This document shows positions 4,530-60,450 of a DNA stretch of 64,000 nt, in pieces; within the stretch, counting starts at the first letter, position 1, and each line of letters starts with the position of its first letter. The notes under the pieces are model-generated. The model saw only the letters and a program-made list of their open reading frames with translations, searched no databases and had not been told where the DNA came from. The stretch is from positions 6,483,034 to 6,547,033 of the forward strand of contig NC_082618.1 in the NCBI RefSeq assembly GCF_030936135.1, read 5' to 3'. The position numbers and the translations under genes are program-made. This stretch comes from Gavia stellata. Lineage: Eukaryota > Chordata > Aves > Gaviiformes > Gaviidae.

Positions 4530-4703
4530 AATTCAAGGAGCGTGTGGATGTGGCATTGTGGGATGTGGCTTGATGGGCATGGTGCTGTGTGGTGTTGGGT
4601 GGGTTGGCTTTTGGTGTGTTGTGGGTTTTTTTTGTTTTTTTTTTTTTTTTAAGGTTGGACTTGATGATCTTACAGGTCTTTTCCAACCTTAGTGATTCTG
4701 TGA
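4530..4703 (+). mobile_element. CR1 LINE 3'-end fragment
   Basis: The segment 4652-4703 reads GGTTGGACTTGATGATCTT, then AGGTCTTTTCCAACCTTAGTGATTCTGTG. This is the diagnostic 3' terminus of chicken-repeat-1 (CR1) elements in sense orientation. The upstream part (GGCATGGTGCTGTGTGGTG) is also CR1-like, but it is interrupted by an expanded T-tract at about 4626-4650. It is a 5'-truncated, non-coding relic. The 3' boundary is firm and the 5' boundary is approximate. Confidence 0.85.
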
Positions 4704-5059
4704 AAAGGGCTCTTGCAAAATTTAGTAGCACATAGATTAAATGGGAAAGAATCACAGTGATGGTAGGAAAAAGACATATGATGCTGATGAGCGTGGTAAG
4801 GTGTATGTACAGGTGCTTTAAAAGGCAATAGGAGTATTACACAACTAGTTCAGCCTTACAGTATTCCGTTTGCACATGGCTAGAGATTTGATTTGGAAGG
4901 ACCTCTACAATACTCTCTTCCCCCCGTCATACTCAACAGTGGCGAGTTGTCAGAATCAGAGTGGGTTTTCAGAACGCGTTTTGCCGCAAATGGCGGGTTT
5001 TGTAGTTCCTGTCCACGCGAGCTACAACTCAGGGGGCGGGACCACTCTTACCATCACGG

Positions 5060-5130
5060 GCATTGGTGGTTCAGTGGTAGAATTCTCGCCTGCCACGCGG
5101 GAGGCCCGGGTTCGATTCCCGGCCAATGCA
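5060..5130 (+). tRNA. tRNA-Gly (anticodon GCC)
   Basis: This is a 71-nt canonical cytosolic glycine tRNA. The acceptor arms GCATTGG and CCAATGC pair fully and are followed by discriminator A. The anticodon GCC is at 5092-5094 in a TGCCACG loop closed by a 5-bp stem. The T-arm contains GGTTCGATTCC. The internal promoter is intact, with an A box at 5067-5077 (TGGTTCAGTGG) and a B box at 5109-5119. There is no intron, and the 3' CCA is not encoded, as expected for a eukaryote. A Pol III terminator follows within 8 nt. The gene sits on the same strand as CRCP, 218 bp upstream of its ATG, and should be functional. Confidence 0.98.
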
Positions 5131-5137
5131 GCCCAGA

Positions 5138-5148
5138 TTTTATTTTTT
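5138..5148 (+). terminator. RNA polymerase III terminator of tRNA-Gly
   Basis: TTTT (5138-5141), an A, then TTTTTT (5143-5148) starts 8 nt after the mature tRNA end. A T4 tract backed up by a T6 tract is an efficient Pol III stop. It would keep Pol III from running into CRCP exon 1. Confidence 0.93.
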
Positions 5149-5343
5149 ACACCACCCCCCCACCCCCGTCATTTCTCCTTCCTTTTCCGCTTCCGTTCCG
5201 CCCGCCAAAACTTACTTTAGCGCAACCCAGCCTCACCCCGCCTCTCCTTGCCGTCGCCGGGCGGGCTGCGGGTGTGTGCGTGGAAGTTCTGCGGCGAGGC
5301 GGCGGCCAGGGGCAGCCCCAGCGCACGGCCCTGCTCGGGGCGG

Positions 5344-5356
5344 ACAAGATGGAGGT
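5344..5356 (+). promoter_or_regulatory. CRCP: TISU/YY1-like element over the CRCP start codon
   Basis: The bases ACAAGATGGAGGT surround the ATG at 5349. They match the TISU/YY1 consensus (SAASATGGCGGC) at 10 of 12 positions. TISU elements combine YY1-dependent transcription with start selection on mRNAs that have very short 5'UTRs. If this one works, the CRCP leader may be short and begin downstream of the tRNA gene. This is inferred from sequence only. Confidence 0.5.
5349..5356 (+). CDS. CRCP: CRCP coding exon 1 (coding part, 8 nt)
   Basis: The start codon is ATG at 5349, followed by GAG and the first two bases of a Val codon. The intron begins GTAAGG at 5357. This donor is required because exon 2 begins with a single A that completes GTA (Val) before AAA GAT. 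An overlapping GT two bases earlier (GTGTAA at 5355) would shift the frame and reach a stop in exon 2. The 5' end of the exon (TSS) is not determined. Confidence 0.93.
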
Positions 5357-8300
5357 GTAAGGAGCGGCGGGGGGGGCGCGGGGACGGGCCGCTGCCGCCT
5401 CCCCCCCGGCTGCGACTCTTCCGTGGCGGCAGCGGGGGCTCCAGGGCCGGGGTGGGGGTGTGTGGATATCTGGGGGTGTGTGGATATCTATATGGGCGTG
5501 CCTCCGTGTGCGTGTTGGCGTGAGGGCTGGGTTGTAGCTATATGGGCCTGCAGCGTGTGTGGACATCTATATGGGCCTGCCAGGGGTGTATGGGGGGTGT
5601 GCTGGGCCTTTAACGCCTCCATAGCCAGCACTGTGTTCAGGCATTCTGGTGAGAAACTGAGTTGTGGTTTTTTTTTTTCTTTGATTTAAAAATCTTGCTG
5701 CAGCATCAGTTTGTTTGGGCAAAAGGCGTCGAGGCTCAGCTTGACTCCCGCTCTCCGTCCCCACCTCCCCTGCCCCTCCTGTCCCCTGGCGCGCCATTTT
5801 CCCTTCTGCCCCGGCAGAGGTGAAACGCAAATCCTCTGCTGCAGCTTCTGGGAGAGAGCTGTCCCTGTGAGCGCCAGGTAGACGGCTTGTGGGAGCTGAA
5901 CATGCTGGAGAAGGAGAAAACCTGCCGGCTGTGCTCCAGCAATTGCAAACATAAGAGGCGAGTCAAAATTTTGGCTAGCTGATGGTTCCTGGCAGTTACC
6001 CCAGGCTGCCCTCCCAGCAAGTTGTGTTGCCTTCCTACGCTGACAGCACTACGCATGTTTCTGTCTTGTTAGCGTCACCTGGGCACAAAACGATAGGATT
6101 TGACCTATTTTGAAGCTTAGAAACTCATTCTTGTGAGTTCTGTGGAGGCTGTTACGTGTGTGGTTATGTACATGTACGCAGTGCTGGTTTGTAATGAGTG
6201 GTGGCATGGAGGATGCCAGTCCCGTGGGATGTACGTCACCGTCCGCCAAAGTCAGCTCAGTTATTGCAGTTCATGTTACCCATAGATGCTTTATTATCAT
6301 TAAATCTTCTATACTATTATATCTATTATCATAAATCTTCTACATGTAAAATTCAAAAGCAGGTAACAAATGACACGACCATTGAAATACGGGTTTGTGT
6401 TACATTAGCCTTAACATGAGTAGCAGCCTGCAGGGACGTGAGCTGTTCTTCCTGTTGTATACTGAAAAATGCTGTGAAACTCATACACAGGCTCAAAGTT
6501 GCAGTCGCATGTAAGGAAAGATAGGATTTGCCCTGCTGAGAAAGATGCTTTGGATACCATTAGTAGTAAGTCTGTGATGCTGCTTATACATACACTTGTT
6601 TTTTACTACCTTGAGTAGCCCAAATTACTTTACTGGTGCTACCTCTTTTAGTTCCAGTAGGAAGGTGCATCAGAGGTAGAAGACCTGGGCTGAAGTCCTG
6701 AGCTGGGGGTGGGTGGCCCTTACATTGGAATGGAACAACTTAGTCCATTTTGCACTTGAATTGCTGTTGGAATTTAATCTCCCTAATCTTTTGCCTCCTG
6801 CCAAATGGCCTTCCTATAGGGAAGCTCTGCAACTAGGAAAACCTCTCCTAAGTTCTTACTGTGTCAGAAGTATCTGTTACTAGAGAAAAGAACCCTTCAG
6901 GAAACATTGTGGTTTAAATATACAACATATTTTAAGCAGTAGATTTAAAAACTTGAAGTGTCAGTGATATTTTTAGAGGTGTGCTGCCATACACTAAGAT
7001 ATTTTTTGATACATGCAGAAGGCCTTCTCAATAATATTTTGGTTTGGACTAAAATTTGGGCAAATACTACCTATTTAAAGAGTCTAAAAAGTGTTTATAC
7101 GTTTGGTGTTAATATGACTTTTTTTTCCTTTCTGCTTAAGTCTTAATCTCATAAAAATGAAGCATTGTTTAGTTGATGATTTAACAATATACATTAGAAT
7201 TCATTATTTATAATTTCTTGTTTTCTGAATGTAAAATTGATAGTTGATTCATGAGATTTAGGACTGAAGACAATTGTATTTCTGCTTTATAAGTCCTGCA
7301 AAGCAACTGGTCTTGTTTATCAGTTTATAATTCTGGTATTTCAGCACAACAGAAATTGTTGAAGATTTGAGACTGACTTATTTGCTATCCATTGTTAGAA
7401 GAAAAAATAAGTATTTTTCTGAATGACAAAGTGTTTTTTAATTAAAGGAGCAATTGTCTTAAGTAATTTAACTTCAGAAAGATTTCACAGACTCATTTGC
7501 ATAGTAATGTATTTACTCTATATGACCCTTTCACTTATTTAACAGAATAATTCCCTATATAATTATTCTATAGCATTATTCTTTCTAACAAAGAATGTCT
7601 TTGATCCATAGGAATTTCTGTAGCGATAGCCTGAATGCAAATATTCTGAAGAATTGCATTTACCTAACAACAAAAGCTATATGGTTTGTAAAACATGAAT
7701 GAAAACTAATGCGTGTGTGAGCTCACTTGCTGAAGTTTCACTCGAGTCAGCGAAATGGAAGTTGAAGTTTATCTCAGCGTATTTTAGAAGGTCCTTTTCA
7801 TTTAAAAACAATGATAGAACCTGTGGAAGTTTGTGGACGCATTTAACTCATTAGAAAGTGATGAACGTGACAGTTCTATTCAAACAGTTGACGGTGCTTA
7901 ACAATACATTGCACCTTTTTTTTCCTTTTTTTTTATAAGCTGCTGCACAGACCTGAGAAAGGCCTTTTTTTCCTTTTGTATGGAAACGTTCTGTTGTTGT
8001 GGCTGCTGTCTGCTCAGCAGAATGTGTTGTTCAGGGAATATAGGATGTTCTGCATCAGGTTTTTCCTCCCTTTTTTAATTTAAAAATACAAAATTACAAT
8101 ATCCAATAGTAAGAGAGGTATGATTAATCTAAATATGCGCTTGATTCAAAGAGAGTGCATTCAGCCTAGCAGTGGTGGATAACGATTCGTGCTTAATTGG
8201 GACAGAATTAGTGGGGAAGTGTTTGGCTGGTGGAAAATGGGAAGCTCTCAGCCTTGCCCTGCTAATAAAGGAGTAGCCACATAAGGTTCAAAGAATAAAT

Positions 8301-11300
8301 AAAGTGGAAATGCAGTAAGGTGGTTTTTTTTAACTCAGTACAGTATGTGTAAATATAGTGCCATGTCTATATCTATACACACACACACAGAGTACAGAAA
8401 TACTCATTGTATTTTCTTTTTCCATGCTGTTGACAAATAAATAAATACTGTATGTTATCTTAATGATTTTTCCTGTTAGTCTTTATTCAAATAAAACTGG
8501 AGGCCTGTTTTTGTAAGGAAGAAGCAAGGCAATCTGGTTTTTCTTCATAAAATTGGATGAGTGAATAAAATAGTGTGGCTGCTGAGTAGAAAGATTGTCA
8601 TGTAAGTGTATTATGATTTATGGGGCAAATTGTGCAAAATATACTGTATATTTAAGTAATAATTATACTAACAATATGGAAAAATATTTTCCAGAGGTGG
8701 CAACAGCTTGGTAGTTGTAGAATCACAACAAATAGATTTCTTGAGGATTTTTTTGAAGAAACCAACTTTATGAAAATAGTGTCTGTTCTTGTAGGATCTG
8801 CGTAACTCAGCAAAGAAAAATTTTAGACAGTTTCATTTAGAACATAAATTAATCGGTTTCATTTTTCCTTTTAGAAAAGATGCAAATGCCGCATTGCTAA
8901 GTAACTTTGAGGTAAGTTTATCTGTGTCCTGGTTTTAAACCAACAGTTTAAAGCTGTACTCAGTCACTTGTATACTTCTTTCAAAGCTGAAAATTGCCAG
9001 TGGCAATCAGCAAGACCTGTATGTGATTTCCACCTGCTCCATTTGATCTGTTATTAAGAAAAAAGCTTTTTAAAGAAAATCTAGTTTTCTAGAAAATTAC
9101 TAGTTTTCATTACTAATGGGTGCTGTATTATTATTTGGTTGGTCCCAAATCTATAAAAACAGATAGAAATAACTTTTTTCAAATAGGTGAGGAACAGATC
9201 TTTAGAATGTCGGTAACTTTAACTTCAGCCTTGCGTAGTACACTGTTGCCGTGTGGTTAGTTTCTTGAATCCTCTTGTGTATGGTGGTTTGTCATTGAGG
9301 ATTCGATTCTCCACATCTTTGAACACTTGTGTATTTGGGCAAGTGCACTAGATTTACTGGTGCTTTGTCTGACGTATGGTGCATTGGATCCCAAATCAGG
9401 AATGTTGACACCAGCGATGTCCAAGATACCTTTTTTTGAATTTTGTCTTATGACAAGCCAATATACCACCGAATGAGTGACACACGCTGATTGCTGGAGT
9501 CTCTTTAATATTGCAACTAAAAATTCTTGCAGAAAAATTGAAACGGTTTTCACAGATGGCTGCTGCTAGAATCTATGTTTCATATTTAACTTTAGCATTG
9601 TGATGTGCAGTATCACTTGAGAACCTGTAACTCATTAATGCGTAGTTATATTAAGCCAGAGCTACTACAAATGCAGTCTTACACCCCTGAATGCCTGACA
9701 GTATTTTTTTTAAAGATCTTGAGGTGTTTCCAAAGCAGGATAGGTTATAGTAAGGGTGAGGCAGTTTGCTGATCTGAGATGTGTTACTCAGGATAAACAC
9801 TCCTAGAAACCAGTGACGTACCTCAGTCTGGTGTCATGGGGAAGCTATGGTGCCCTGTCATAACAAACAATGAATATTGGCATACAAATAAAAAAATAAT
9901 CTTTCTTTTTAGTATAGAGCAGTTCTGAATCATTTTCCTCTCTCCAGAGCAAACATATTTTTTCAGTGAAGCAGAAAGAAATGTTGTGTTCTTGTTGGTT
10001 TAACTTCTGCCAGGTAGTGGAAAGATTTCAATGCTTTGTTTATGAATGTAAATTTTTGAATGGTTTTAATAACCCAAGTGCTTTGTTTATATTGTTTTAT
10101 TGCTGAAGCTTGAAAGTTGCACAGCTGTTTCATCCTATTCTGAAATAAATCTTGAAATGTTTTATCTTGAGCTGCATTTGTCTGCAGAGAACCATCTGGT
10201 GACTGTTAGAAGAGCTTTAGTGAGGTACTTGGAAACAACTGTCTTGCCTAAGAAATAGGTGATGTTATGTCAGCCAAACGAGTATTGAGTGTCTGTTTGT
10301 TAAAAACATGTACTATTGCAGTACAGAAAATAGCAAGTATTTCAGAGATTATTTATTGCAAAATCTTCTCTGCTTTCTTCTTCATTTGCTGGGATATTGT
10401 TGGAATCGAGGTATTACTGGCTGCTGAGTCAGGTAGTGGTGTCGGGCACATTATGTAAAGTCTATAGGTGTCCTAAATGTATGGTCCAGAATAGGGAGAA
10501 CTGCAGAATCCATTCTTCGTGCTCTTTAGTCAGAACTTTCTTCAGCTGAGTCTTTATGTTAGTGAATGTACCACGTGTGTTGAAAAAGAGCAAAAGGAAG
10601 TGGAAAACGAAAGTTACTGATGAGAGTGCTTATTTCTCATTTCTCTTTCACAGCAGTTGTCATGCATGCAGCTTTTTGATTCTTTGCAGGAAGGGATTTG
10701 CAGTGTCTGCAGCTACAGGCTTTTGGGGCATGGCTTTTTACTGCTCTTCAAAGTACTGATTCCCCTAAAACTACCGATCTCTTTCTGTTTGCTGCTCTTT
10801 CCAGTTGCAATTTGACTGGCATAGCTAACATTCTCTTTATTGAGGTAATACTTTGCACAGAAAGTGGTGGTTGAAAGGAGTATTCAGGATTGACATGTTG
10901 TATGTTCCATGCCTACATTTCTTCTGTGAGTTTGGAGTTGTCATTTTGTGTTGTGTTGTCACTGGCTACGTTTTCTTCAAATATTTACTAGATAAAAGTT
11001 CGTAGCTTGTGTTTTGGCTTTCAAGTCAGGATTGACAGGTGTTCCTTTTTCATAGAAGATGCAGTATAAAGTAGTTGCTGGATTCGTAGCCGGTTATGTT
11101 CTTATTTCTCACTGTCTGGAAATGTTTGTATTCTTATTTCTATGGACTTGTCAGTTTATAATGCCATTGGATCTGGATCTTGAATGAAGCTAGTTAAAAA
11201 TCAGGGGATAAACAGTAAGAAGTGGTCTGTTACTTTGCTGTGGGTATTGGCTCTGGATATACCGTGACGTCTGAAGCAAAACATCTGAAGCAATTTCAAC

Positions 11301-14300
11301 CTAATGTGATTTAATATGGGAATAAAAGAGTAATTGTGATGCTGTCTCAACATTTTGCTGCACATCTAGCTACGATGAATAAAGATGTTGCGTTGTTGCA
11401 ACAGATTTGACAAAGCACAGTTGCAAAAATCAAAACGTTTTCCTTGCCTTCAGACTTACCCTCTGAACCTTGCTCCTACATTAATACTCACTGCATCATG
11501 AACGTGAAGACAACTTTATTACATTCTTTTCAAGAATATCTCCTTGTATTACATTGTTGTGATGAAATAGGGAGCTAATTTAATCTTTGTGGCTTAACAT
11601 ACCATAACACCATACCGGTCACTGTAACATTTGCTATTACGAATAACTCCACTGGAATTTACAATAGGATCGCTAATCTCAGGAGCATCTATAGGTCAAG
11701 CCTTTATTTAGCTGCTTCCTGGCAGTGTGACAGTTGTAGGGTTTACTTTTTTTTTTGCAGCTAATGTAAAATTGCATCTTCCCGAGACAAGATATATATC
11801 CATTTTAATATTATAGGTACATCTGTCATAACAAATCTGGTAGGACCATAAATTTGTGTGACATTTTGCTTCAAGCATCACTCATATTTAAATGGGAGCT
11901 CTATGCCAATACAGCAGTGTATGACCCAACTCGGTTCAGGATGTGAGATAAGATAAACAAGTAGAATAGATTCATCCTGGCAGCTTCTCCTTTGGGGCTG
12001 TTGGATAACATTTAACAAGTGCTGAAAATATGTTTAAAATAATCAGTTTTTAAAAAAACAATTTACATACCTATTCTTCATTCTGGTGCCAAAATATTTT
12101 TCATTTCAATTGCTGGTGCAGTCACCAAAGAAGCCACACTTTTTTTTTTTGTTGTTTGATTGATAGGATTTTGTGTTGTTCATTTATATTTTCCTGCTGT
12201 AATATATTTAGGTAAAATACGCTCAAATGGTGTAAAACACTTTATTTTTTTTTTTCCCCCAGGTGTTCCAGTTACTTACTGATCTTAAGCAGCAGCGCAA
12301 AGAGAGTGGAAAAAACAAGCAAAGCTCTGGTCAGCAGAATCTGAACACAATCATGTATGAAGTGAGTAGCACTGTGAAATTCCTTTGCAAATTAGCCCAA
12401 GCTGGAGAAATTTACATCCTTAGGTCTGTATATTAATAATTTTGTATCAAATTTCCCCTATTAAAAAACACAGTAAAATATTTTATTTGCCACTTTCTGT
12501 GGTTGATTTATTCAGGTTGTAGGCTAACTGCGCTGTCAGGGCAGAGGCATGCAGCTGCTCTTATTAAAATCTATCACAAAAATAATACCCCCCCCCCCCC
12601 CCGGTTTTTATTCTATTCTTTTAAGACCCAGGGCAGAACTTGCTATCATCTGATGAATTGATGATAGCACCTAATCATGGTTTCAAAGCTGAGGCACAGG
12701 TATTTTCTTATTAACAGAATTAAACTAATAATTTTCCACTAAGAGCAAGTCATGGTCAACCTGAATAGCAAAAATCACATGAACAGATAGCAACATCAAT
12801 TGGATGCCACATTGGTAATAAATGTTCAATCTATTGCTAGGAAGAACTTTTAAAATCATGTAGTACAAATAGTAGCATTTTAAATATCTCAAATTAGCAA
12901 CTTCATAACAGACTTGCAGTATGATCTATTGTGTCCGTGTCAGAGAATTGCATGAGTAGCACCACGATTGGCAGCGAGTTGAAAGCTGTTTGCCTTGCTT
13001 GCATGAGTAATCCTGTTGAGCAGTGAAACTACTCATGTGAATAAGATTTGGCCTAGGCTTTGTTTTTGTTTTAGTTCTGGCTTTGTTTGAAAAGGTTGTA
13101 ATTCCTAAGCCTCATACTCAACAAAATAGGGGCTTACAAAAAATCTAATTTAAATCTTCATGGAGACTAACAGTCTCTTCCTGTACCTCTTTGAAACAGC
13201 TGAGAAAGATCCTGTAAGTATATTTTGTCAGAATGCACCTTAAAGCTTTATTTGCCTTGTTATATTGCTACGTGTTAAATACCTGGAGAATGCTCGGTTT
13301 TGTGCATGGAATGAAGCTGGTGTAAACTCTAGGTACATTTTCTCTACAGTTGACTGAAAGAAAACCAGAATTTGATCTTGCAGGATTGTTTTTATTCATG
13401 CTGAGTATGTCTTTGTGAGCTCTGTGCAGGCTTGTATCCATTGGTACTGAAATAACTAGATGAAGCTTGCAAAACTGGACCTATGTTTTGCTGTATGTCT
13501 GGCATTTTAATTGATCTGAAATTGCCGAAAAAAAGACTAAATGGAAAAGAAATTACTCCTGTTAAATAATTCTATTACATGGCAATATGATGATTTCCTT
13601 TCAGTCATTATTGGTGAATAAAAACTTCATTTTATCTGAAAAGGTCAGACAGGGCTTACAGAAAGGGGGTTTATCGAATATGTTGTTATGCTTTTAAATA
13701 TATTCTCAGTAGTCCAATGAAACTGGTCTGTAAGAATACCAGTGATTCACATTTCATCAACACTCTATATGTTAGTAGGATAAATTATCCTGTGTTGTTG
13801 AATTCTGTTTTCCTTTACCTAGCATTTTTAAATGGTAACAGATATTAATGGAAATACACTGGAAATACATTTGCGTATTTTCTTATTTGCCATGCTGATC
13901 TTGTAGCTCTTTTTTTTTCCCCAGCATCTGTTGTTTTCTGCTCTGTGAATACGGATTCATCTTTTTTGGCTTCTGACTTTTCAAATATAAATGTTCAGTT
14001 CAAAGATTTTCTGAGAAAGAAACGCAGAGAGTATCACATAGAATTTTATGGGGTTTTATTATTATTATAGATAATCTGTGCATGTGGTATTGTACTGCAC
14101 TTCTGTCTGTATTTGCAATCCAGTTAGTGAACCATGAGTCAGTTGTATTGATGCTTCTAAGCTTTATGTATAGCTGTGCAGTATCAACAGATGAAGATTT
14201 TCTTCCTTAATTCAAAACAAGCATTGACAATACTCTTTTAAATCCTTCAGTTGCTGATGCACACAATGCAGACAATGCAAGGATTTTCTTGACTTTTCCA

Positions 14301-17300
14301 TTGATGCTCATTATTTCCAACTCTTCATTTTGGGGTCTAATCCAAGCAACAAGCAACATTCAGGAAGATTCTAAGCTACTTCCAGTGAAAAGACAGCTGT
14401 GAACTGGAATTTGTACAGGTTTTTTTATCAACAATTCTTTTGTTTTACTCAGGTCAAATTACATTATGTATTATCCGTCTGCTTGGTGTTGTGTTCTTTT
14501 AAATAAAGAAGCAGAGGAAACATCTGCTGCAAAAGTTAGCTGAGATTAGTAGGTATTACATGTAAAAAATGGAGCAAAGATAAATTGTCTCAAGTCAGAT
14601 AAACATTTCTAATGCTACAGTATTCTTGCAAATTTTCATGACAACCCACCTAACCTGCTTGTATGAACTTTAGGAAAGCATTGCCAAATATGCATATAAA
14701 GGATGAAAACAACTGTAGATTGGAGAGCTTAATGAGTTATTTATGGGTTGGCAGTGAGAGTATTCCTGGCACTGAGCACATGAAAACTTGGCAGAAGGTA
14801 ACATGGTTTTAAGGGTGAATAGTGTTCAACTTTTCTGAAGTGTTACTGCTTATAAAAAACAAAAGAACAAAAAATAAACACCACAAAAAAAACCCTGAAC
14901 CCCCTATCTTGGTACCTTTTTAAACTAGCTTTGAATCTGTAAATGTTTGTTGGTTTTAAAAGGAAAAGTAAATCTGAGTGATACTATTTAGCACAGCTGT
15001 AAGTATGTCTTGATCACAGTCTTAACATCACCTGAGATTATTTCAAAGGGAGAAAGCAAATGTTTTTCACAAACAGCAGGTGTTTTTTTTAGTAGACAGA
15101 GCTAAACCTCGTTCCTTTCCTGTATTCTTCAACATGCGACTTTGGGCTTTGAACAGATCAGATAAATGGCCATCCAAAGCCACAGAGGGAATAGTCAACA
15201 CTGTAATTCTCACCTGGCTGTGTAATGAGCTGGCTGGGTCATGTCTTTACAGAATGAATTCACTGGGGCTTTCTGGGTAAGTACTAATGTAATTTCCATT
15301 ACGTAAAGTTACATATTGCCTGTTTCTTCCTCCCTCAGCAAATAACAGTATAGTCTTACTGAAGACAAAAAACCGTGAGTGATCTGTGTCATTTATGACA
15401 GCACTTCTTACTGTTAAAAAAAAAAAAAAGGTAAAAAGCCAAACCCCAAGACTTGAATTGACTTTTCCAATTTTTCTGGGCTGTACTGAGGAGACTTTCC
15501 AAAATCGGCTTGTTTCCTACACAACTGATAAAGCAAATAGTAACTGTGAAATAATGCATACTTTCTTTCTATCTGTTGCAGACACTGAAGTACATTTCAA
15601 AAACACCCTGTAGGTACCAGAGTGCTGAGACTGTGAGAGATTTCCTCGTAGCAATGAAAGGCCATAAGCTAACCAAGTAAGTAGAGATATGCCTTTGAAT
15701 AAAAGTATAAATGCGTGGAAATGTTGAAAAACTTATCCCCGTGTACGCATTATGATAATCTGTGTGGTTTTGATTAATGTATTTTAAGTATTTTCTGCCG
15801 TTATTTAAATACTCATCCAAACATCTTTCCCTTCACTCATTAACACCTACATGAATGAGTATTTCCTTGAGTAGGCCTGTGTTTGCCAACGTATTTCTCA
15901 AACAGATTCTTGTCAGTATGTTGGATTTTGGCATGGTTTCACATGGTGCAAGCACAAAGGAGAGCTCAAAATATTTTCTGAGGAAGAAGTTAAAAGTTGT
16001 AAATGGGTTTTAAACACAGTAAGAGAACTGCAAAAAAAACCGCCAACCCAACCTCGGTTTATTATCAGCCTTATTTTTATGAACTTCCTTAAGCAAAAAT
16101 GCATTCATTCCTAAGAGGTGAAAAAGGTGGCTGTATTGCAGGGACATAACAAGTAAACAAAATCCTAATATAGATGTATGGGAAAGAATGTTGTTCTGAA
16201 GTTAAGTTTTATGAGAATCTGTGAATCCCAACTGCTACAGATCATCTCTCAGGGTTACGCTCTCTAACTGGCGTTAAGTAAACTAAGATGTTCATCTTGT
16301 GCTGTTTGTCCACTGATGTTTATGTCCACTAGAATTTCTCAGACATACATTTCAGTTACCTAAATACTGTGTCAATCAACCTTCCCCCGCCTCCCCCCTG
16401 CTGCCCTTGCAGTTTCTAGTAAAGCTGAACATATAGTTCATTTTTCTTATTTTGGGAAGTCCTGCATAGAAAATAAAAGATTTCCTTCACTACGAGAAAA
16501 CTCAAAGGGTATTTTTCTTCTTTGGCAGTGGTGTGAATGCCTGTTCACAGTGCTTGAAATGCATGATCCTCTCCAACCTCTCTCCAGAGTGTGAGTGAAG
16601 CCTGTTGTAAATAATCAGACCCCCAAAAAACTGAAACAGACTACTTGCTTGGATAGTTCTAATCAGTCATCTGATTTTTAAAGCAGAAAGAACAAAGGTT
16701 TAGTTGCTTCTAAATGACTCCCTCTTCACCACGAAGGAGTAGTTTATGCTCTATAGACACTGACTGCATTTTTCTTCCCTGGTGGAGGGAATCCCAAGGA
16801 GTTCATGCTCTGGGAAGGAAGCTCTTGCTAATAATTTGGTTGTCACAAAAAAGAAATGCAAAGTAAGAGCATCTGCAGAGTGCAGTGCTACAAGGCAAGT
16901 TTTTACCCTGTCCAGAGCATAATAAGTTGAGTAGAAAGCAGGTTGTCAGCTATTTTGTTGACTTTCAGTGCCCCCTCGCTACAAACAATTATGCTCACAT
17001 CCAGTGTATCAGCAGCTCTGATCACAGTATTGCTGTCACTGCAGAGCTGGGGGTGCTAATACTTGGAAGCTTTGTCATGGGTATTGTAGCTTTGCTTGTA
17101 GTGCTTTCTTTTGTAGAGCTAAAGTTGCCGGGTCAGTATGTCAGTGGTTAGTCCTCCTGTAGCACATTTTATATAGCAGGATACTAATTTATGTAGTGGG
17201 CACGGTGTCCTAATTATTTTCTGACGTGGAGGTATTCAAGCATGGAAAAAATACTCTGCTTACTGTAAAGAGCTGATACTATGGAAGTGAAAGAGACTAC

Positions 17301-26300: not shown

Positions 26301-29300
26301 GCATGCATGTACACACCGCAGCAATGCATCGTTTGGCAAAGGCTTCTCCTGAGGAGTCTAAACACCTTGATCTTTGAACACGTACTGGTGCGCATACATG
26401 AATGATGAAGTATTGAAGTGCCCGACAATATTATAAGCTGTTAGCTGGTGTTAGATTTCGAGGACAGCCAGTGTTGGAGGCCATTTGAAAAGGGACGGTA
26501 CCTCTGAAGTATCTCCAGACGCGTAGACATTGACCTGTTGGTCTGTAAATGCCTGCGTGGGAGAGCTGGGGCTGTGCACTACAGCATCTGCGTTCTCCTG
26601 AAAACCACCCACAGGTCCAGTAAACCAGGGGGAAACTCTTCAGAATCAGTTTAAATATGCATTAAAGATGCCCTTTAAATAATAATAAATTCCAAGCTTT
26701 AGTTCTTCAAAGCCGTAGTTCACTACTGTATCACAGACTGGAAGATCGTGCATGTTAACTGTCACTTCTCACTTTAATGCATGAATGTGCTGCATAAACA
26801 TAGATGGCTGCTAGGAGAGGCTGTACGTCAAGTAATAATCATGCAAGATTCCCCCCCCCCCCAAAAAAAAAAAGTATGTTCAAGTTCCTTTACTCATTGT
26901 ATTATTATTATACTTTAATTGTATGTTTTTATTATAAAAGTGCATTTGTTACTGTTTCATATGCCCTTTTAAACATCTGTTGTATTTTTAGGAGTGTTGT
27001 ATTATCGTGCTTTTCTGTGCTAAAACACAAAGATCAGCTCAGATCATTAGTCATGCTGCTGTTATGTGGTCAATGTTAATGTTTTGAGCTTCTGAAATTT
27101 ATGAAATAAGCATTGCTGGCATATGACAGCTGTTTTCTACTTTGGTTTTAGAATTATTTGTATTTAAGTAGGGTGTAAGATTAATATTTTTTGGCTGCAG
27201 AGCTATTGCCTGAATGTTGTGGTTTGAATTTAATGAAAATACTTGTTTGATCACATCTTCAAAAAAATAATTTTTTTTTAATGTCAATGAAATTTTCTCC
27301 CTCATGCCCTTTATTTTCTATTTTAATGATCAAAGTGTTCTAATGGATATTTGTGAGATCTTGTGCTTTCTTGATGGAAAAAGTAGAGCTAATAGCTGTT
27401 TGGTTAAAATGAATCCAGAAAAGCTGTGAGTCTGGGTGAGCTTAATGATGGTTCTGAATGTATCTGGGGTTTTGCCACTGGCTTCAGTGGTGCTAAACAG
27501 TCTCCCTGCATATTAAAGCGTTTTGTGTTTAAGTACCAACATCAGACAAATTCTACTGACTTCTCCTTGTAGGCAGAGGAGAATGGAATTTGAACCATTA
27601 AACAAACAAATGCAACACAGTTCCTATCTAAAATCAAAACAAAAGAAGCTAATATTGATTGAAGTGCTTCTGGGCTAAAGGCACGGGACTGCAAATCTGA
27701 ATGCATGAAACTGCTTTCTGTCTGCCTTAGAGTGTGGATAGGTAATCAGAAGTGTTTGAATTATTGTAAATTAATGAATTATCACTTGTCTTTTACACTG
27801 CAATAAGTAACCATACCTTTACAACTCAGGCACTGATTGAGGGTGGTGGGGTTTTTTTGGCATTTTCTGTATCTTTGCTACCTTGCTGTTCGTGGTCATG
27901 CAAGTCTTTGTGGGACTGTGCAGTGAGTCAAGTCAAAAAGGACTCGGGGAAAAAGAGGTTGGTTATCTTTACAGTCCAGCTCAGTCCCCACCTGGTTTGC
28001 TGCATGGTGCCCAACAGTTGTAGAAACACAACAGAAAGGTAGATTTGCATGGGAACAGAGATGAAGATACATTTTTTTTGCTCAAAGATAAATGTGTAAA
28101 ACTATGGCCTCAGCCCATTGTAATAATGTTTGAAAAAATGCATTGGCTTAAAACGTGTGGGTTGCAGAGAGTACGTGTGACCGAGTGGTTTGAAGATGAT
28201 TTTTTTTTTTAACTTTGCATTTGCAGTGGGCTAAAAGAATAAACAAGTTATTGCCATTTGGCTGATGGATTGTAACTTCTTAGGTATGATAATTGTTCTT
28301 GTGGTCGTGTGCTCATAGCAAGAGTCTGTGATCTTTGACGAGTTGTTCGCCCTTTCTGTACAGCGTTTAACAAAGCAACAGTGCATGTTAGTTAATGCTT
28401 GTACAGTAATGATCTAAGGTCCTCTGCCTTGCCACCTTAGACTAGAAATGGCAACATCAGTATGTGTAAACACACAAAGAAGTTCTGTATTTAAAATACC
28501 CAGGTTATCATGGTGAATAAACCACGCTGCAAACCCAGTCAGAATTATTCTTGGCAGTGACTTTTCATCCCTAAACTATCAGGAATGCATTTGCCTCCTA
28601 CCAGTCATTTTGGGGGATCCTCAAATTATATAGTAATGTGGATTGTTTTACGCTTTGCTTTTAAACAGGGCAGAAAAGCTCCAGTTGCTTAACCACAGGC
28701 CTGTGACGGCAGTTGAAATACAGCTGGTGAGTAACAATGCTCCTGACTGTCCAAAGCTTAAACGAAAGCAGCTTTAACCTTGAAGATCAATTGAATAATT
28801 ACTTTCTCATGGTCAGTGATTGAATGTATCCCTTTATGCACATCTATACATTCATGGTTTCAAATCCACTCTGCTTCCTGAGAGCTCCTTAGAGACTTGC
28901 CCATCTTTCTCTCAGGCAGATTCTCCACCTCTGTTTGCTGCAGTGTCACATATTGAAAATGCCCAATGTGGTCATTAAAGGTTAGTTACAGTATTACAAC
29001 TAAGAATATATTTAACCTGAGTCTTTTTGCTGCTGCTCTGTAATCAAGTACTTCACTTTTTGACAGCTGTGATGACACGGTTGTTTTGATGGCAGGCTTT
29101 TATGTTATAGTAAAACCAAACATGCTAAAAAGGAATGAGTAATGACTGATACAGGATTTTGAGCAGAGGTGCAGAATGCGAAATGGATATAACCAGACTT
29201 TCTGATGGAAAGTAGCCATTATCAATCTGTTAAGCACAATTCTGATGTAAAGAGGGATTGTCACTGAATAGAAATAGATGGTTATATTCTCTGAAGTATG

Positions 29301-35300: not shown

Positions 35301-37251
35301 TGTATTGGGAGGAATAAAATGTAAATGGGGAAGAGGGGTGGACTTCACGTGATCCAACATATCAAATCTAAACCAGGCAAGGTGCCATTTTTCTGAAGAT
35401 TGGAAAGCAGTGGGATGGTAACGAATGCAGGACACATTGCCCACTAAGAGATACATCACTCTGCCTTAAGTGATGCTGCCTGTCCAAAGCACATGGGCTT
35501 TTTCTTTGTACAGTTCCTGCTGCTATGGGGCTGTCACCTTTAAAATTCAATGTACCAGTAATTAACACTATAATCCAGTCCAAAAACCAGGCTGATAATC
35601 CTCTGCAAAACTTAGTAGCATAGGTCATCTGTAGAGTAATGGCTTTGTCAGCAGTATTGGCAACAAAGAGTGTATGTACGCACTGTAACATACTTCGTTG
35701 TGTAATGTTGATGCTCCAAGGTATGCTAGTCAAGCTGCTGAGGTGATCACCTCTGAAATGCAGCCTAGCAGGCAATTATCTGATACCACTTCAGTAGCTG
35801 CAGCCGTTGCTTAGACAGAAGGGTAACGTTAGGAGGATTTTTAGTGTATTTTAACTCGTAGTGTATAGTATAGCAGCTGGCGGTAATGAGAGCCAGGGCT
35901 GTTTTTCAAGCCAGGGTCCTACAGTAGTTCTTGAACTAACTGTAGTTTGAAAGCCACTCCACAGAGAATTTAATCCTTTGATCAGGATGGTCCCCAGAAA
36001 CAGTCATTTGCAAATGGATATTCACTGTCTGCCGTTTGCTACATGAGTGGATTCTAGCGTGCTCACTTTCCTCTCATCAAGGATCTGTGGATAATGGCTG
36101 ATGAAAGATGATCAGATTATGCAAAGAGAGTGCATAAGACATTGAAGAAAAAAAAAGTTAATTGAATACACCACTCTGCTTTTTAGAAGGCAAGATGCAT
36201 CTGACTAGCTGACAGTTTATAGCTAGAACTGATTAAACCTGCATTGACTTGGAACCATAATTAATATAAATCACTGCTCTTCAAAGGACATTTTAAAGGA
36301 CTTTGTATAAAAAAGAAAATCTCAAACTCCGCAATCCTAATTGGTTTCATTTGCGTTTGAAGAGTTCATTTGGCTTCCTTTTCCAGTCCTCTGACAAGCT
36401 TTTCCTTTTAACAGCTGCCTATAAATTAGGGCAGTTGTTTTTACTAGTAGCAGTGATATAAGAGTTCCCACAGCTCCGCAGTGAGAGCAGGTCCCTAATT
36501 AATCTTACAGAATTTTATTGTTGATTTGTGACAGCATGTTTTGTGTTGCTCAGAGCTTTTATATTCAGGAATCTTACAATCGAAGTAAATTCCAATAAAG
36601 TATGGCTGCTGTAGGATTAGATGGCTTCTTTTATGGCCTAATTACTTACAGTCCAGGTGCTGGATAAGATATGAAGGTTCAGGTAACCACTGTCAGGTTA
36701 TCTCATTTCAGTTCTCGCATGAAAGCACAGGAACTTAGAAAAATAGCTCTGGAAGGTAGCTCTGCACGTGAGCTAAATGAAAAGCCTGGCTCAATATACT
36801 GATGTGTAGGTTAAGAGAGGCTATAGGAGAAACCAGGGAGGAAAGCCTGGTTTGCGTGTGTGGCTTTCCTTGTTGTAAAGAAAGCATGGTTTCATTATGG
36901 GGTGCCAGTTGTCGTGGTTAACAATGGAGCTGCTCTTTCTTTTTTTAAATAAGAGTTCCACTTTGTGAAGTGCTTTTGTAATGAGCTCAGACTATGACTT
37001 GCATCCATTGAGAACAGTATTTCCCAATTAGTTGAATCCTTCTCTTTGGAGCTGAGGAAGGAAGTACGGATTTAATGATTACAATGGATTGGTTTTTTGA
37101 CCTGCAGATGGTAGAAGAAAGCGAGGAAAGGCTAACAGAAGAGCAGATTGAGTCACTTCTCCAGACAGTCACCAGTATTCTTCCAGGGGATCCAGAAGAA
37201 CAACAGAGAGACTCAGCAATGGCAACTGAAGAGAAAGGTGACCAAGCGTAG
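5349..37251 (+). CDS. CRCP: CRCP: DNA-directed RNA polymerase III subunit RPC9 (CGRP-receptor component)
   Basis: The six exons join to 441 nt (146 residues plus stop): 5349-5356, 8875-8911, 12263-12361, 15582-15676, 28669-28726, 37108-37251. The product is the Rpb4-like subunit (yeast Rpc17). With RPC8/POLR3H it forms the Pol III stalk used in initiation on tRNA and 5S genes. The mammalian orthologue was also described as a CGRP-receptor coupling protein. Recognition rests on near-identity to human CRCP from memory: start MEVKDAN, then VFQLLTDLK, KESGKNK, SSGQQNLNTI, TLKYISKTPCR, AEKLQLLNHRPVTAVEIQL and MVEESEERLTEEQIE. The length is close to the human protein (about 148). The N-terminal part is Rpb4-like and the C-terminal half an HRDC-like helical fold. 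The last about 20 residues are acidic, Gln-rich and diverged from human. All introns are GT-AG with matching phases. No frameshift or internal stop is present. Confidence 0.97.
5457..5585. repeat. Degenerate tandem repeat, GTGTGTGGATATCTATATGG type
   Basis: About 26-bp units of the form GTGTGTGGAYATCTATATGG plus GCSTGC recur at 5476-5501 and 5555-5580. Partial copies lie between and before them. The array is at the downstream edge of the CRCP CpG island, inside intron 1. Confidence 0.8.
6292..6342. repeat. Two-copy duplication of an AT-rich 20-mer
   Basis: TATTATCATTAAATCTTCTA (6292-6311) recurs with one base missing at 6324-6342, 32 bp away. It is a local duplication within CRCP intron 1. 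Confidence 0.75.
8875..8911 (+). CDS. CRCP: CRCP coding exon 2
   Basis: This 37-nt exon follows the acceptor TTTTAG and ends TTTGAG|GTAAGT. It encodes the end of Val3 and then KDANAALLSNFE. Human CRCP has KDANSALLSNYE here. Confidence 0.95.
8912..12262 (+). other. CRCP: CRCP intron 2
   Basis: This is a 3.35-kb GT-AG intron, AT-rich throughout. It ends in a long T/C tract before exon 3. A 98-codon open frame on the minus strand (9257-9553) resembles no family I recognise. No repeats of note are seen. Confidence 0.92.
12263..12361 (+). CDS. CRCP: CRCP coding exon 3
   Basis: This 99-nt exon (33 codons, phase 0 at both ends) follows a strong polypyrimidine tract ending CCCCCAG and stops at TATGAA|GTGAGT. 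It encodes VFQLLTDLKQQRKESG and onward to NTIMYE. This is the first part of the Rpb4-like domain. Confidence 0.97.
12362..15581 (+). other. CRCP: CRCP intron 3
   Basis: This is a 3.2-kb GT-AG intron of phase 0. It contains a 15-base C homopolymer (12588-12602) and a 12-base A run near 15419. It also holds a 24-nt segment with microexon-like borders (15253-15276), described under findings. Confidence 0.92.
12588..12602. repeat. C15 homopolymer
   Basis: There are fifteen consecutive C residues about 225 bp after CRCP exon 3. The complementary strand is G15 and could form a G-quadruplex. The length is likely variable and difficult to sequence accurately. Confidence 0.9.
15582..15676 (+). CDS. 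CRCP: CRCP coding exon 4
   Basis: This 95-nt exon follows the acceptor TGTTGCAG and ends ACCAA|GTAAGT. It encodes TLKYISKTPCRYQSAETV through GHKLT plus two bases of a Lys codon, which the first base of exon 5 completes. Confidence 0.97.
23871..23975 (-). mobile_element. MIR-type SINE relic, antisense
   Basis: The run GGAAACTGAGGCACAGA, then a CTTGGCCAGGGCC region, then CAGCTAACAGTGAGAGCCAGGAC lines up in order with the reverse complement of the MIR core. In that consensus GAGGAAACTGAGGCACAGAG is followed by TTGCCCAAGGTCACACAGCTAGTAAGTGGCAGAGCC. It is strongly diverged and truncated. The match is from memory of the consensus. Confidence 0.65.
25051..25125 (+). mobile_element. MIR-type SINE relic, sense
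   Basis: The sequence CCTCAGTATTACTGTCTGTAA followed by AATGGGAATAGTGATCCTTACTACTTTATA corresponds to the MIR core CCTCAGTTTCCCCATCTGTAA, then AATGGGGATAATAATA and a CCTCAT-type region. It is truncated at both ends. It lies in CRCP intron 4. Confidence 0.65.
28669..28726 (+). CDS. CRCP: CRCP coding exon 5
   Basis: This 58-nt exon follows TTAAACAG and ends CAGCTG|GTGAGT. It encodes the rest of Lys and then AEKLQLLNHRPVTAVEIQL. This is the most conserved block of the protein and is identical to the human residues as I remember them. Confidence 0.97.
28727..37107 (+). other. CRCP: CRCP intron 5
   Basis: This is an 8.4-kb GT-AG intron, AT-rich, with a (CT)6 run at about 30848. One weak MIR-like match is possible at 35874-35925 (GAGAGCCAGGGCTG then CCAGGGTCCT), too diverged to assert. 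No exon or RNA gene is recognised. Confidence 0.9.
37108..37251 (+). CDS. CRCP: CRCP coding exon 6 (terminal)
   Basis: This exon has 144 coding nt after acceptor CCTGCAG and encodes MVEESEERLTEEQIESLL to a TAG stop at 37249-37251. The 47-residue tail begins as conserved HRDC-like helices. It ends in a diverged acidic segment (about PEEQQ...TEEKGDQA) that differs from the human C terminus. Confidence 0.97.
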   Translation: MVEESEERLTEEQIESLLQTVTSILPGDPEEQQRDSAMATEEKGDQA

Positions 37252-48892: not shown

Positions 48893-50672
48893 CGGGTGGG
48901 GAAGAAATAGCAGCTGGTGGGAAGAGATCACCAAAGACCTGATGCGTGTCGTGAGTCGCCTCTCGGCGTGCGGAGATCCTCCCGATCTGCCCGAAATCAG
49001 GCTCCAGCTCCGGGCTGAGCCCCGCTTCAAATATTGGTGATCCCTTTGGTGGTCAGTGGTTGCGGTGGGAAGGACGGGGTCTGCCCGGAGCCGGCACTCG
49101 TGGCTGCACTATCTCCTCTGCTGCTCCTTGGTGCTGCCGGTGGGGACCAGAATTGCCTATTTAAGCCTAAAAAGGTGAAATTCAGCAGTGCTGTGAGTTG
49201 GGGGTTGCGTCGCTCAGGTCGGGGGTGAGCGGGATGCTCTTCCACGAGGTGGGTTGGACCCGGGGGTTTTGGTGAAACTCCATCTGGGCTTGCAGTTTTG
49301 GAAATGTGACGATTTTAGCAGCGTTGTCACAGAGTTATCCTGCGGGGACACGCAGCACCGAGTGGGCGCTGCTGCCGGGGTTTTGCAGCAGCTCTATAAG
49401 GGGAATAAAGGGGGGGAAAAATGAATGGAAATGGATTTTAGTGGACTTTGATCAGTCTGTGAGAGGGATTATATCAGTCGGGCGCTTCGTGAGCTGACCC
49501 TGACGGCTCTCTGAAATCCTGTCCTCCCACGAGCTCTGCACTGGGCTCCCAGCCTTCCCACCGGCGCGCTTCGGCTTTATCCCGGTTATTGTTTGAAGCC
49601 GCACAGGACCGACGCACTGAGCGCCGTTGGTGAGCGCAGCTGAGACCCTCCAGCATAGCACTGACCATGGCTGGGGTGAGAATACATCTGCTGGAGGGAG
49701 AAGTGACACTGAGCTTTCTGCCAGCCTTGCTGCCTGCCTTAAAATACCCCAAAGAGGTGTTAAGTGCAGTTATTTGTAGATCCACAGTGCAGATATTTAC
49801 TCCTGCAGCGATACGCCGCTGGCCTTGCTGCCAATCCTTAGATAAGCAGTAAATCCCAACATCTCCAGACATTCATTTCATCCTGCTGCTTGCTTTTTCT
49901 TCAGTTTGTTAGTTTAATAGTATTTCATCTGTCTCTTTGTGACTTTTCCGTCTTTTGTCCAATTTTAAGTCACATAAAATTGATTTATACCAAACCCACA
50001 TTACATGAAATCAGCTTTCAGCTCCCTTTTTCCAGCTTGCAAAGAAGCAAATGGGTGCAAGGACTTTCAGAGGTAATCGTGGCTGTGCTGGCCAGCTGCT
50101 CTCCAATCCAGAAAATAAAGAGCATGGCCTGTTTCCTGTTAAATTTTGCTGGTCGCATTGATTTACATTGTTTGTCTCATGTTTTATGGCTTCCAAGCTG
50201 ATGTTGCGTTAAGCTGGCTGGAGTTTAGGCAAGAAATCAAATGCAGGCACTGGCAGGTTTCCCCAAACGCATTCATGAGGGTTGATCGCATAGTCACATT
50301 TTCTTAGTCACTGGAGGAGAAATAGCGGAGCTGGCTTGCTTGTGTCCCGGCCAGTTTGCATCGATCCTGTGCTGGTAAAAGGCACTTGTCAGACAATTTT
50401 GGAAATTCAAACCATGGGGCAATGCAGGTGGCGGAGGGGCTGCGTCCCCCTGCACCATAGCTGGGAGCTCCTACAGCTGCCGGAGCTGTGGTTTGGTGGC
50501 CGTGGGGCGTCTCCTGTCTTTATCTTGACCCATGAGCTTCTTATTTGTCTTATATTCTTCCCCATCCTGTTGAGGAGGAGAGTGAGAGAGCAGCTGGGTG
50601 GGTGCCCAGCAGCCAGCCAAGGCCACCCCACCAAAAACATGGACTGGGGCAGAAATTCTCATATATATGTAT

Positions 50673-59423: not shown

Positions 59424-59773
59424 GCGTGAGCTGCGACACACTCCAGCTGTTCCCAGCTATCAACATCTGTCTGGCACAGCTGTCCAGACGTTGGTGCACA
59501 TGGGCTCCTCCAGATGCTCACGTGGCGCCACTGCCCAGATGTGCGCCCGCGCGCCCCGCCTGCTCCAGCTGTGCGCTCCAGATGTTTCGCGCCGCACCCG
59601 CAGGGGTTAACGGCCCCGCCCCCGCCGCCAGGCCCCGCCCCCTTAGCTGTCAATCTTCAGCGCCGGCCCAACCGCGTCCCGCGACACATCGAGGCCCGCG
59701 ACCAATCAGGGCGTGGTTGTGATTTCCATGGCAGCCGCAGCCGCGCGGCTGAGGGGAAGGTGGCGGCGCAGCC

Positions 59774-59839
59774 GGTCCCGGTCCCGGTCCCGGTCCCGGT
59801 CCCGGTCCCGGTCCCGGTCCCGGTCCCGGTCCCGGTCCC
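59774..59839. repeat. Hexanucleotide array (GGTCCC)11 in the CpG island
   Basis: There are eleven perfect tandem copies of GGTCCC (66 bp), located in the presumed first exon between the CCAAT box and the splice donor. Perfect copies imply recent expansion and length polymorphism. The sense frames read Gly-Pro, Val-Pro and Ser-Arg dipeptide repeats. Confidence 0.97.
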
Positions 59840-60248
59840 TACCCCCTGCGATGGTGCCTGAGGGGAGCCGCGGCGGAGGAGGGGCAGCGGTGCTGCTGCT
59901 GCGCGGCTCTAGCCCGGCCCTGGCAGCGGCCGCCGCGGCGCGGGGGCGGTGGCAGCGCAGGTGAGGAGCCGCTGCCCGCCGCGCACCTGAGGCGGGAGGC
60001 TGCGGCGGGGCGGAGCGGGCCCCGGGCGCGGCCGTTCCCCTCCCCACCGCCCGCGCAGCCCCGGCGGCTGCCGCCGTGCTCCGCCCTGCCCCGCCCGGCG
60101 CTGGGGCGGCTCCGGTGCTGCCAGAGCCGTTGCCTTTGTCGGCCGGGCTGGGGACGGCCGCGGCCTGAGGCGAGGGCTGGGAGCGGGTCGGCGCTGTGGC
60201 CGCGCGGTCCCCGCGCCCCTCAGGCGCCGCTGCCGGGCCGGGGGAGCC

Positions 60249-60266
60249 GGGCCGGGCCGGGCCGGG
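60249..60266 (+). repeat. (GGGCC)n tract with G-quadruplex potential
   Basis: Four GGG runs separated by CC lie in an 18-nt tract inside the CpG island, downstream of the presumed first-exon donor. Four such runs satisfy the usual G-quadruplex pattern. Confidence 0.85.
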
Positions 60267-60450
60267 CCGTGCTGGCCGGGGCGCTCGGCTGTGCGGGCAT
60301 CGCCGCGGGTCCCGTAGCTGCAGCCGGGAGCGCCCGAGGATGCGCGGCGGGGGCGGCGGGGCCGGCTCGCTGCTTCCCGCCGGTGCCGTGGCGCGGTGCG
60401 AGGCGGATCGGAGCCGGGTAAAGCGGAGAGTTTCCGTACGGGCGGGCTAA

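Follow-up and report, generated by a model that had tools for sequence, protein, structure and literature searches.

The closest described counterpart of the arrangement considered here is mouse Polr3e, where, according to the covered sections of a 2017 study, an antisense MIR element in intron 1 represses the host gene through Pol III interference, which its authors proposed as a possible negative feedback loop (PMC5358760). The same sections report that the MIR effect in a reporter required antisense orientation, and that the Pol III transcripts that were tested showed no increase despite the extra POLR3E present after deletion of the MIR; they also note human sense Pol III units with a build-up of Pol II and a yeast TFIIIB effect that is independent of orientation. 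Upstream of the Polr3e TSS, the study further records a Pol III-occupied tRNA-Leu gene, which served as its positive control for Pol III ChIP (PMC5358760). Two other papers, as far as their covered parts go, bear on the MIR itself: depletion of Pol III raised the Pol II signal there (PMC9703767), and the element is elsewhere termed an enhancer of POLR3E (PMC5340127). Finally, in HEK293 cells carrying a POLR3B variant, CRCP mRNA is reported to rise, and to rise more than that of POLR3E, for which a response in human cells is described as well (PMC10896340, in excerpt).

Beyond Polr3e, two further systems offer partial likenesses. In yeast, the ETC6 site in the TFC6 promoter is cited, in the text available, as a case of TFIIIC autoregulation (PMC4228148); there, the gene for a Pol III factor carries a Pol III factor site in its promoter. 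This differs from the locus described below in the organism and in that the regulated gene encodes a TFIIIC subunit rather than a polymerase subunit. ETC6 is a TFIIIC site that is not known to yield a tRNA, and the original work on ETC6 and TFC6 is reportedly that of Kleinschmidt et al. 2011. More generally, tRNA genes are often closely spaced with coding genes, and one such pair is described as kept across vertebrates and co-regulated; unlike the present case, the coding neighbours named in the covered part of that source include no Pol III subunit genes.

In Gavia stellata, an intact tRNA-Gly(GCC) gene followed by Pol III terminators lies a short distance upstream of an intact CRCP gene, which encodes the Pol III subunit RPC9, and a single CpG island spans the tRNA gene and the start of CRCP. 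The window, by which we mean the whole 64-kb stretch of DNA that was analysed, contains the following features of interest, all positions being counted from its first nucleotide.

4900 to 5600 (approximate limits), no strand: CpG island with the tRNA gene and CRCP exon 1
4987 to 4996, plus strand: YY1-like site with one mismatch, 64-73 bp 5′ of the tRNA gene, at chance level
4995 to 5006, minus strand: weak ZNF143-like match with two mismatches, at chance level
5021 to 5032, plus strand: weak ZNF143-like match with three mismatches, at chance level
5032 to 5040, plus strand: GC box GGGGGCGGG, 20-28 bp 5′ of the tRNA gene, inside the region where TFIIIB would be expected
5060 to 5130, plus strand: tRNA-Gly(GCC) gene, 71 nt (ARAGORN; Rfam RF00005, 66.6 bits)
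5067 to 5077, plus strand: A box TGGTTCAGTGG, matching TRGYNNARNNG
5109 to 5119, plus strand: B box GGTTCGATTCC, the sole exact match in 64 kb
5138 to 5141 and 5143 to 5148, plus strand: oligo-T Pol III terminators (T4 and T6), 8-18 nt past the tRNA end
5346 to 5355, plus strand: YY1-type site with no mismatches, overlapping the CRCP start codon
5349 to 5356, plus strand: coding part of CRCP exon 1, ATGGAGGT, with donor gtaagg
8875 to 8911, plus strand: CRCP exon 2
12263 to 12361, plus strand: CRCP exon 3
15582 to 15676, plus strand: CRCP exon 4
28669 to 28726, plus strand: CRCP exon 5
37108 to 37251, plus strand: coding part of CRCP exon 6, with stop codon TAG

The tRNA gene aligns over the full length of the RF00005 model (positions 1-71), whose gathering score is 29, and forms a complete cloverleaf with zero non-standard pairs marked in the Rfam covariance alignment; by ARAGORN and by Rfam alike it is the sole tRNA in the window. 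Its sequence is presumably that of the common vertebrate tRNA-Gly-GCC. The spacing between the A box, which was recognised by its match to the consensus pattern, and the B box is normal, and the one exact B-box match in the window compares with 0.16 expected, at least one match being found in 15 of 100 shuffles. The two predictors and the motif positions agree with the sequence-only reading, which had described a complete tRNA-Gly(GCC) with A box, B box and a T4/T6 terminator.

Several other descriptions of the unit were tried and set aside. A retroposed tRNA or tRNA-derived SINE was rejected, as neither CCA nor an A-rich tail follows the tRNA. A 10-bp direct repeat, CCCCCGTCAT, is present at 4921-4930 and at 5163-5172 and encloses 4931-5162, including the tRNA gene and the motifs upstream of it; as a mark of retroposition it was discarded, an equally long repeat having appeared in 7 of 100 dinucleotide shuffles. 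A type-3 promoter of the kind that drives tRNA-Sec or U6 was rejected, there being no plus-strand TATA[AT]A within 4901-5400. A scan of the window for paired A and B boxes returned two pairs, namely the tRNA-Gly(GCC) gene and a minus-strand pair near 50457 with a spacing of 91, which was judged a chance occurrence and not a second Pol III unit. Some 350 bp upstream of the tRNA gene lies a fragment (4650-4705) that resembles a CR1 3′ end.

Joining the six CRCP exons yields an intact open reading frame of 146 amino acids, and the splice sites conform to consensus (five AG acceptors and five donors of the GTAAG/GTGAG type). The predicted protein matches human RPC9 (7a6h_D) with an E value of 3.8e-70, compared with 1.7e-05 for RPB4, and Pfam RNA_pol_Rpb4 with an E value of 5e-31. 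Because the RPC9 match is far better than that to RPB4 and is joined by the Pfam assignment, the gene is identified as CRCP/RPC9, the identity first proposed for it. The tRNA gene ends at 5130 and the CRCP ATG lies at 5349, both on the plus strand, so that 218 bp separate them, exactly as had been claimed. The claim of a single CpG island likewise holds: 200-bp windows starting at 4900-5400 have a GC content of 0.55-0.74 and a CpG observed/expected ratio of 0.60-0.97, and both measures are raised over approximately 4900-5600.

The ATGs that different transcripts would contain bear mildly on where CRCP transcription begins. A transcript from upstream of 4990 would carry the ATG at 4990, which opens a 76-codon reading frame ending at 5220, as well as the ATG at 5126, whose frame runs for 187 codons in unspliced sequence, whereas the stretch from 5131 to 5348, between the tRNA gene and the CRCP start codon, is free of ATG. 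The presence of the upstream ATGs and their absence from 5131-5348 argue mildly for CRCP transcription starting past the tRNA terminator and ahead of the CRCP ATG. The promoter-type motifs, which were scored against consensus patterns, fared unevenly. The sequence-only reading had placed a YY1-like site, a ZNF143-like pair and a GC box upstream of the tRNA gene, and of these the GC box stands, being in the wording of the analysis rarer than chance would give (3 matches in 64 kb against 0.17 expected). The other two are at chance level: the YY1 pattern with at most one mismatch is not enriched in the window (14 matches against 17.5 expected), and the ZNF143 pattern at the mismatch level concerned occurs 90 times against 86 expected, so that the pair, with two and three mismatches, was dropped as promoter evidence. 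YY1 sites in plus orientation sit just downstream of many start sites. The sole perfect YY1 match in the window is the site on the CRCP ATG.

Like the Polr3e MIR, for which negative feedback on the Pol III level was proposed, the tRNA gene is a type-2 Pol III unit close to where a Pol III subunit would have its promoter, in this case 218 bp upstream of the CRCP ATG. Unlike the MIR, which is a SINE lying antisense in intron 1 and is thought to collide with elongating Pol II, the unit at CRCP is a tRNA gene that lies upstream of the ATG and in the sense orientation, tRNA and CRCP both being on the plus strand. The mouse tRNA-Leu gene, which Pol III occupies, is similar in that it, too, lies upstream of where a Pol III subunit gene starts; it differs in the subunit concerned (RPC5 as opposed to RPC9) and in its isotype. 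An adjacency of this kind has therefore been published before for a different subunit, and the idea itself has precedents.

How often such an adjacency should arise was estimated roughly and post hoc, counting tRNA genes on either strand. The inputs were 169 tRNA genes per bird (from a news article on a bird tRNA paper, Ottenburghs 2021), the report that 44 of 558 human tRNA genes lie within 500 bp of a coding gene (PMC10791582, in excerpt), half of which were taken to be at the 5′ side, and, as round figures, totals of 16,000 for all genes, 17 for Pol III subunits, 30 for the Pol III machinery and 200 for tRNA-related genes. On these figures, one expects 0.007 cases per bird genome (about 1 in 140) of a tRNA gene no more than 500 bp from the 5′ end of any of the 17 subunit genes; the same expectation is 0.013 for the 30 machinery genes and 0.08 (about 1 in 12) for the approximately 200 tRNA-related genes. 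The closeness of tRNA and CRCP is real and mildly unusual. We know of no tRNA gene beside human CRCP. A literature search brought up no paper on CRCP together with tRNA-Gly; where CRCP is paired with a tRNA gene, the mentions of CRCP name no adjacent tRNA in the text covered, work on bird tRNA synteny gave nothing direct on CRCP, and the covered parts of PMC4378963 and PMC8362101 contain nothing on a tRNA-CRCP locus. Two sequence searches were uninformative on synteny: the 55-nt tRNA core gave 0 matches among viral contigs, a non-vertebrate set, and the CRCP protein gave 26 pattern matches and 0 relatives among prokaryotic contigs.

What Pol III activity at such a position would do to a neighbouring Pol II gene is suggested by work elsewhere. 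Fly Fiber-seq, in the sections covered, found Pol II and Pol III initiation to be anti-coordinated within 5 kb, and defined Pol III footprints at fly tRNA genes as those with a start 45-55 bp upstream and a length of 30-140 bp (PMC10769320). In mouse ES cells, acute Pol III depletion altered both the occupancy of nucleosomes and the activity of Pol II at mRNA genes close by, which was read as Pol III facilitating those genes; tRNA annotations were, in the same excerpt, not highly enriched near affected genes (PMC9703767). A further study reports no clear association in its covered part (PMC10791582). Taking the Polr3e MIR and the fly data together, local interference between Pol III and Pol II is plausible by analogy, its sign being disputed.

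We consider it most probable, at odds of roughly two in three and judging from the sequence, that this is an ordinary and probably active tRNA-Gly(GCC) gene sitting in open CpG-island chromatin that it has in common with the housekeeping gene CRCP, with mild crosstalk at most. TFIIIC would bind the A and B boxes, and TFIIIB would cover approximately 50 bp upstream of the tRNA; since the GC box lies 20-28 bp upstream, within the span of the fly footprints, bound TFIIIB would be expected over it. Pol III would stop at the T4/T6 run, and Pol II would initiate CRCP separately, between approximately 5150 and 5348. The two units may keep one another's chromatin open and may compete mildly over 5000-5150, and no dedicated capacity-sensing loop would be needed; that a tRNA gene and the gene for a Pol III subunit have met here would be mostly coincidence. 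The intact tRNA with its boxes and terminators, the intact CRCP and the island over both support this account, the ATG-free stretch mildly fits it, and, as far as the covered source goes, synteny is kept by very few tRNA genes between mouse and human. It must nevertheless accommodate an expectation of only 0.007 cases per genome when mouse Polr3e gives another in print, a CRCP mRNA that responds somehow to Pol III deficiency (PMC10896340), and the fly anti-coordination, which, holding within 5 kb, would make an effect on CRCP more than mild (PMC10769320).

The main competing possibilities differ in the sign and the site of the effect. The tRNA gene may aid CRCP transcription, with Pol III and TFIIIC excluding nucleosomes and helping to recruit FACT, and both the facilitation reported in ES cells and the island common to the two genes are in keeping with this; the absence of a high enrichment of tRNA annotations near affected genes (PMC9703767), the lack of a clear association (PMC10791582) and the opposite sign of the fly data (PMC10769320) all weigh the other way, and we regard it as rather unlikely. 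A negative feedback sensor, one form of the Pol III-capacity sensor that the sequence-only reading had suggested and one that we hold to be unlikely, would instead have Pol III on the tRNA cover the GC box and upstream promoter and lower CRCP, scarcity of Pol III then raising CRCP and restoring the stalk subunit. The GC box would lie within a fly-type Pol III footprint, the fly anti-coordination has the right sign (PMC10769320), the Polr3e MIR follows the same logic at another subunit (PMC5358760, PMC10896340), and Pol II signal rose at the MIR when Pol III was depleted (PMC9703767). The increase of CRCP mRNA in POLR3B-variant cells cuts both ways: it indicates that CRCP responds when Pol III is deficient, but the cells are human. 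As no tRNA gene is known beside the human gene, that response may not need one.

Further points count against a sensor at CRCP. Of the upstream motifs, all but the GC box occur at chance level; the MIR effect depended on antisense orientation in a reporter, while the CRCP tRNA is sense and upstream; the failure of extra POLR3E to raise the tested transcripts suggests that a subunit may not be limiting (PMC5358760); and the Polr3e MIR has itself been called an enhancer (PMC5340127). A broader version, in which the promoters of vertebrate Pol III subunit genes, such as POLR3E in mammals and CRCP in this lineage, repeatedly gain tRNA or tRNA-derived units as cis sensors that lower expression when Pol III is plentiful, with TFIIIB on the tRNA-Gly gene directly masking the CRCP GC box, seems to us decidedly improbable. 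Least probable of all is that the tRNA lies inside the CRCP 5′ UTR, with a Pol II start close to 4987, where the YY1-like site lies, and a tRNA that is excised from a longer transcript or read through in it: that site and the GC box do stand upstream of the tRNA in plus orientation, but such a transcript would carry the ATGs at 4990 and 5126, and the one YY1-type site without a mismatch overlaps the CRCP ATG. A CRCP promoter that responds to Pol III is possible.

Elsewhere in the window, positions 1-750 form a second GC-rich stretch (GC 0.65-0.69), with a CCCGCTG tandem repeat of 7.7 copies at 374-427. On the minus strand, a start-and-donor pattern, ATGGCAGCCGAG followed by gtgagg, with its ATG at 284-282, suggests a divergent gene, perhaps ASL/delta-crystallin with its first coding exon here, the remainder of which would fall outside the window. 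At the other end, 59600-60450 looks GC-rich, as judged from its translations, and holds two GC boxes (59615 and 59634) and a simple repeat that reads as SR or GP dipeptides depending on the frame; it is perhaps the promoter of the next gene.

The pairing of CRCP with a tRNA gene bears on how Pol III levels are set in cells; in the portions of the literature covered, the Polr3e MIR is the one cis loop found at a gene for a Pol III subunit. If the arrangement is not conserved, it would be a neat but ordinary instance of open promoter chromatin hosting a tRNA gene; if it is conserved, CRCP would be a second case of a tRNA gene at the promoter of a Pol III subunit.
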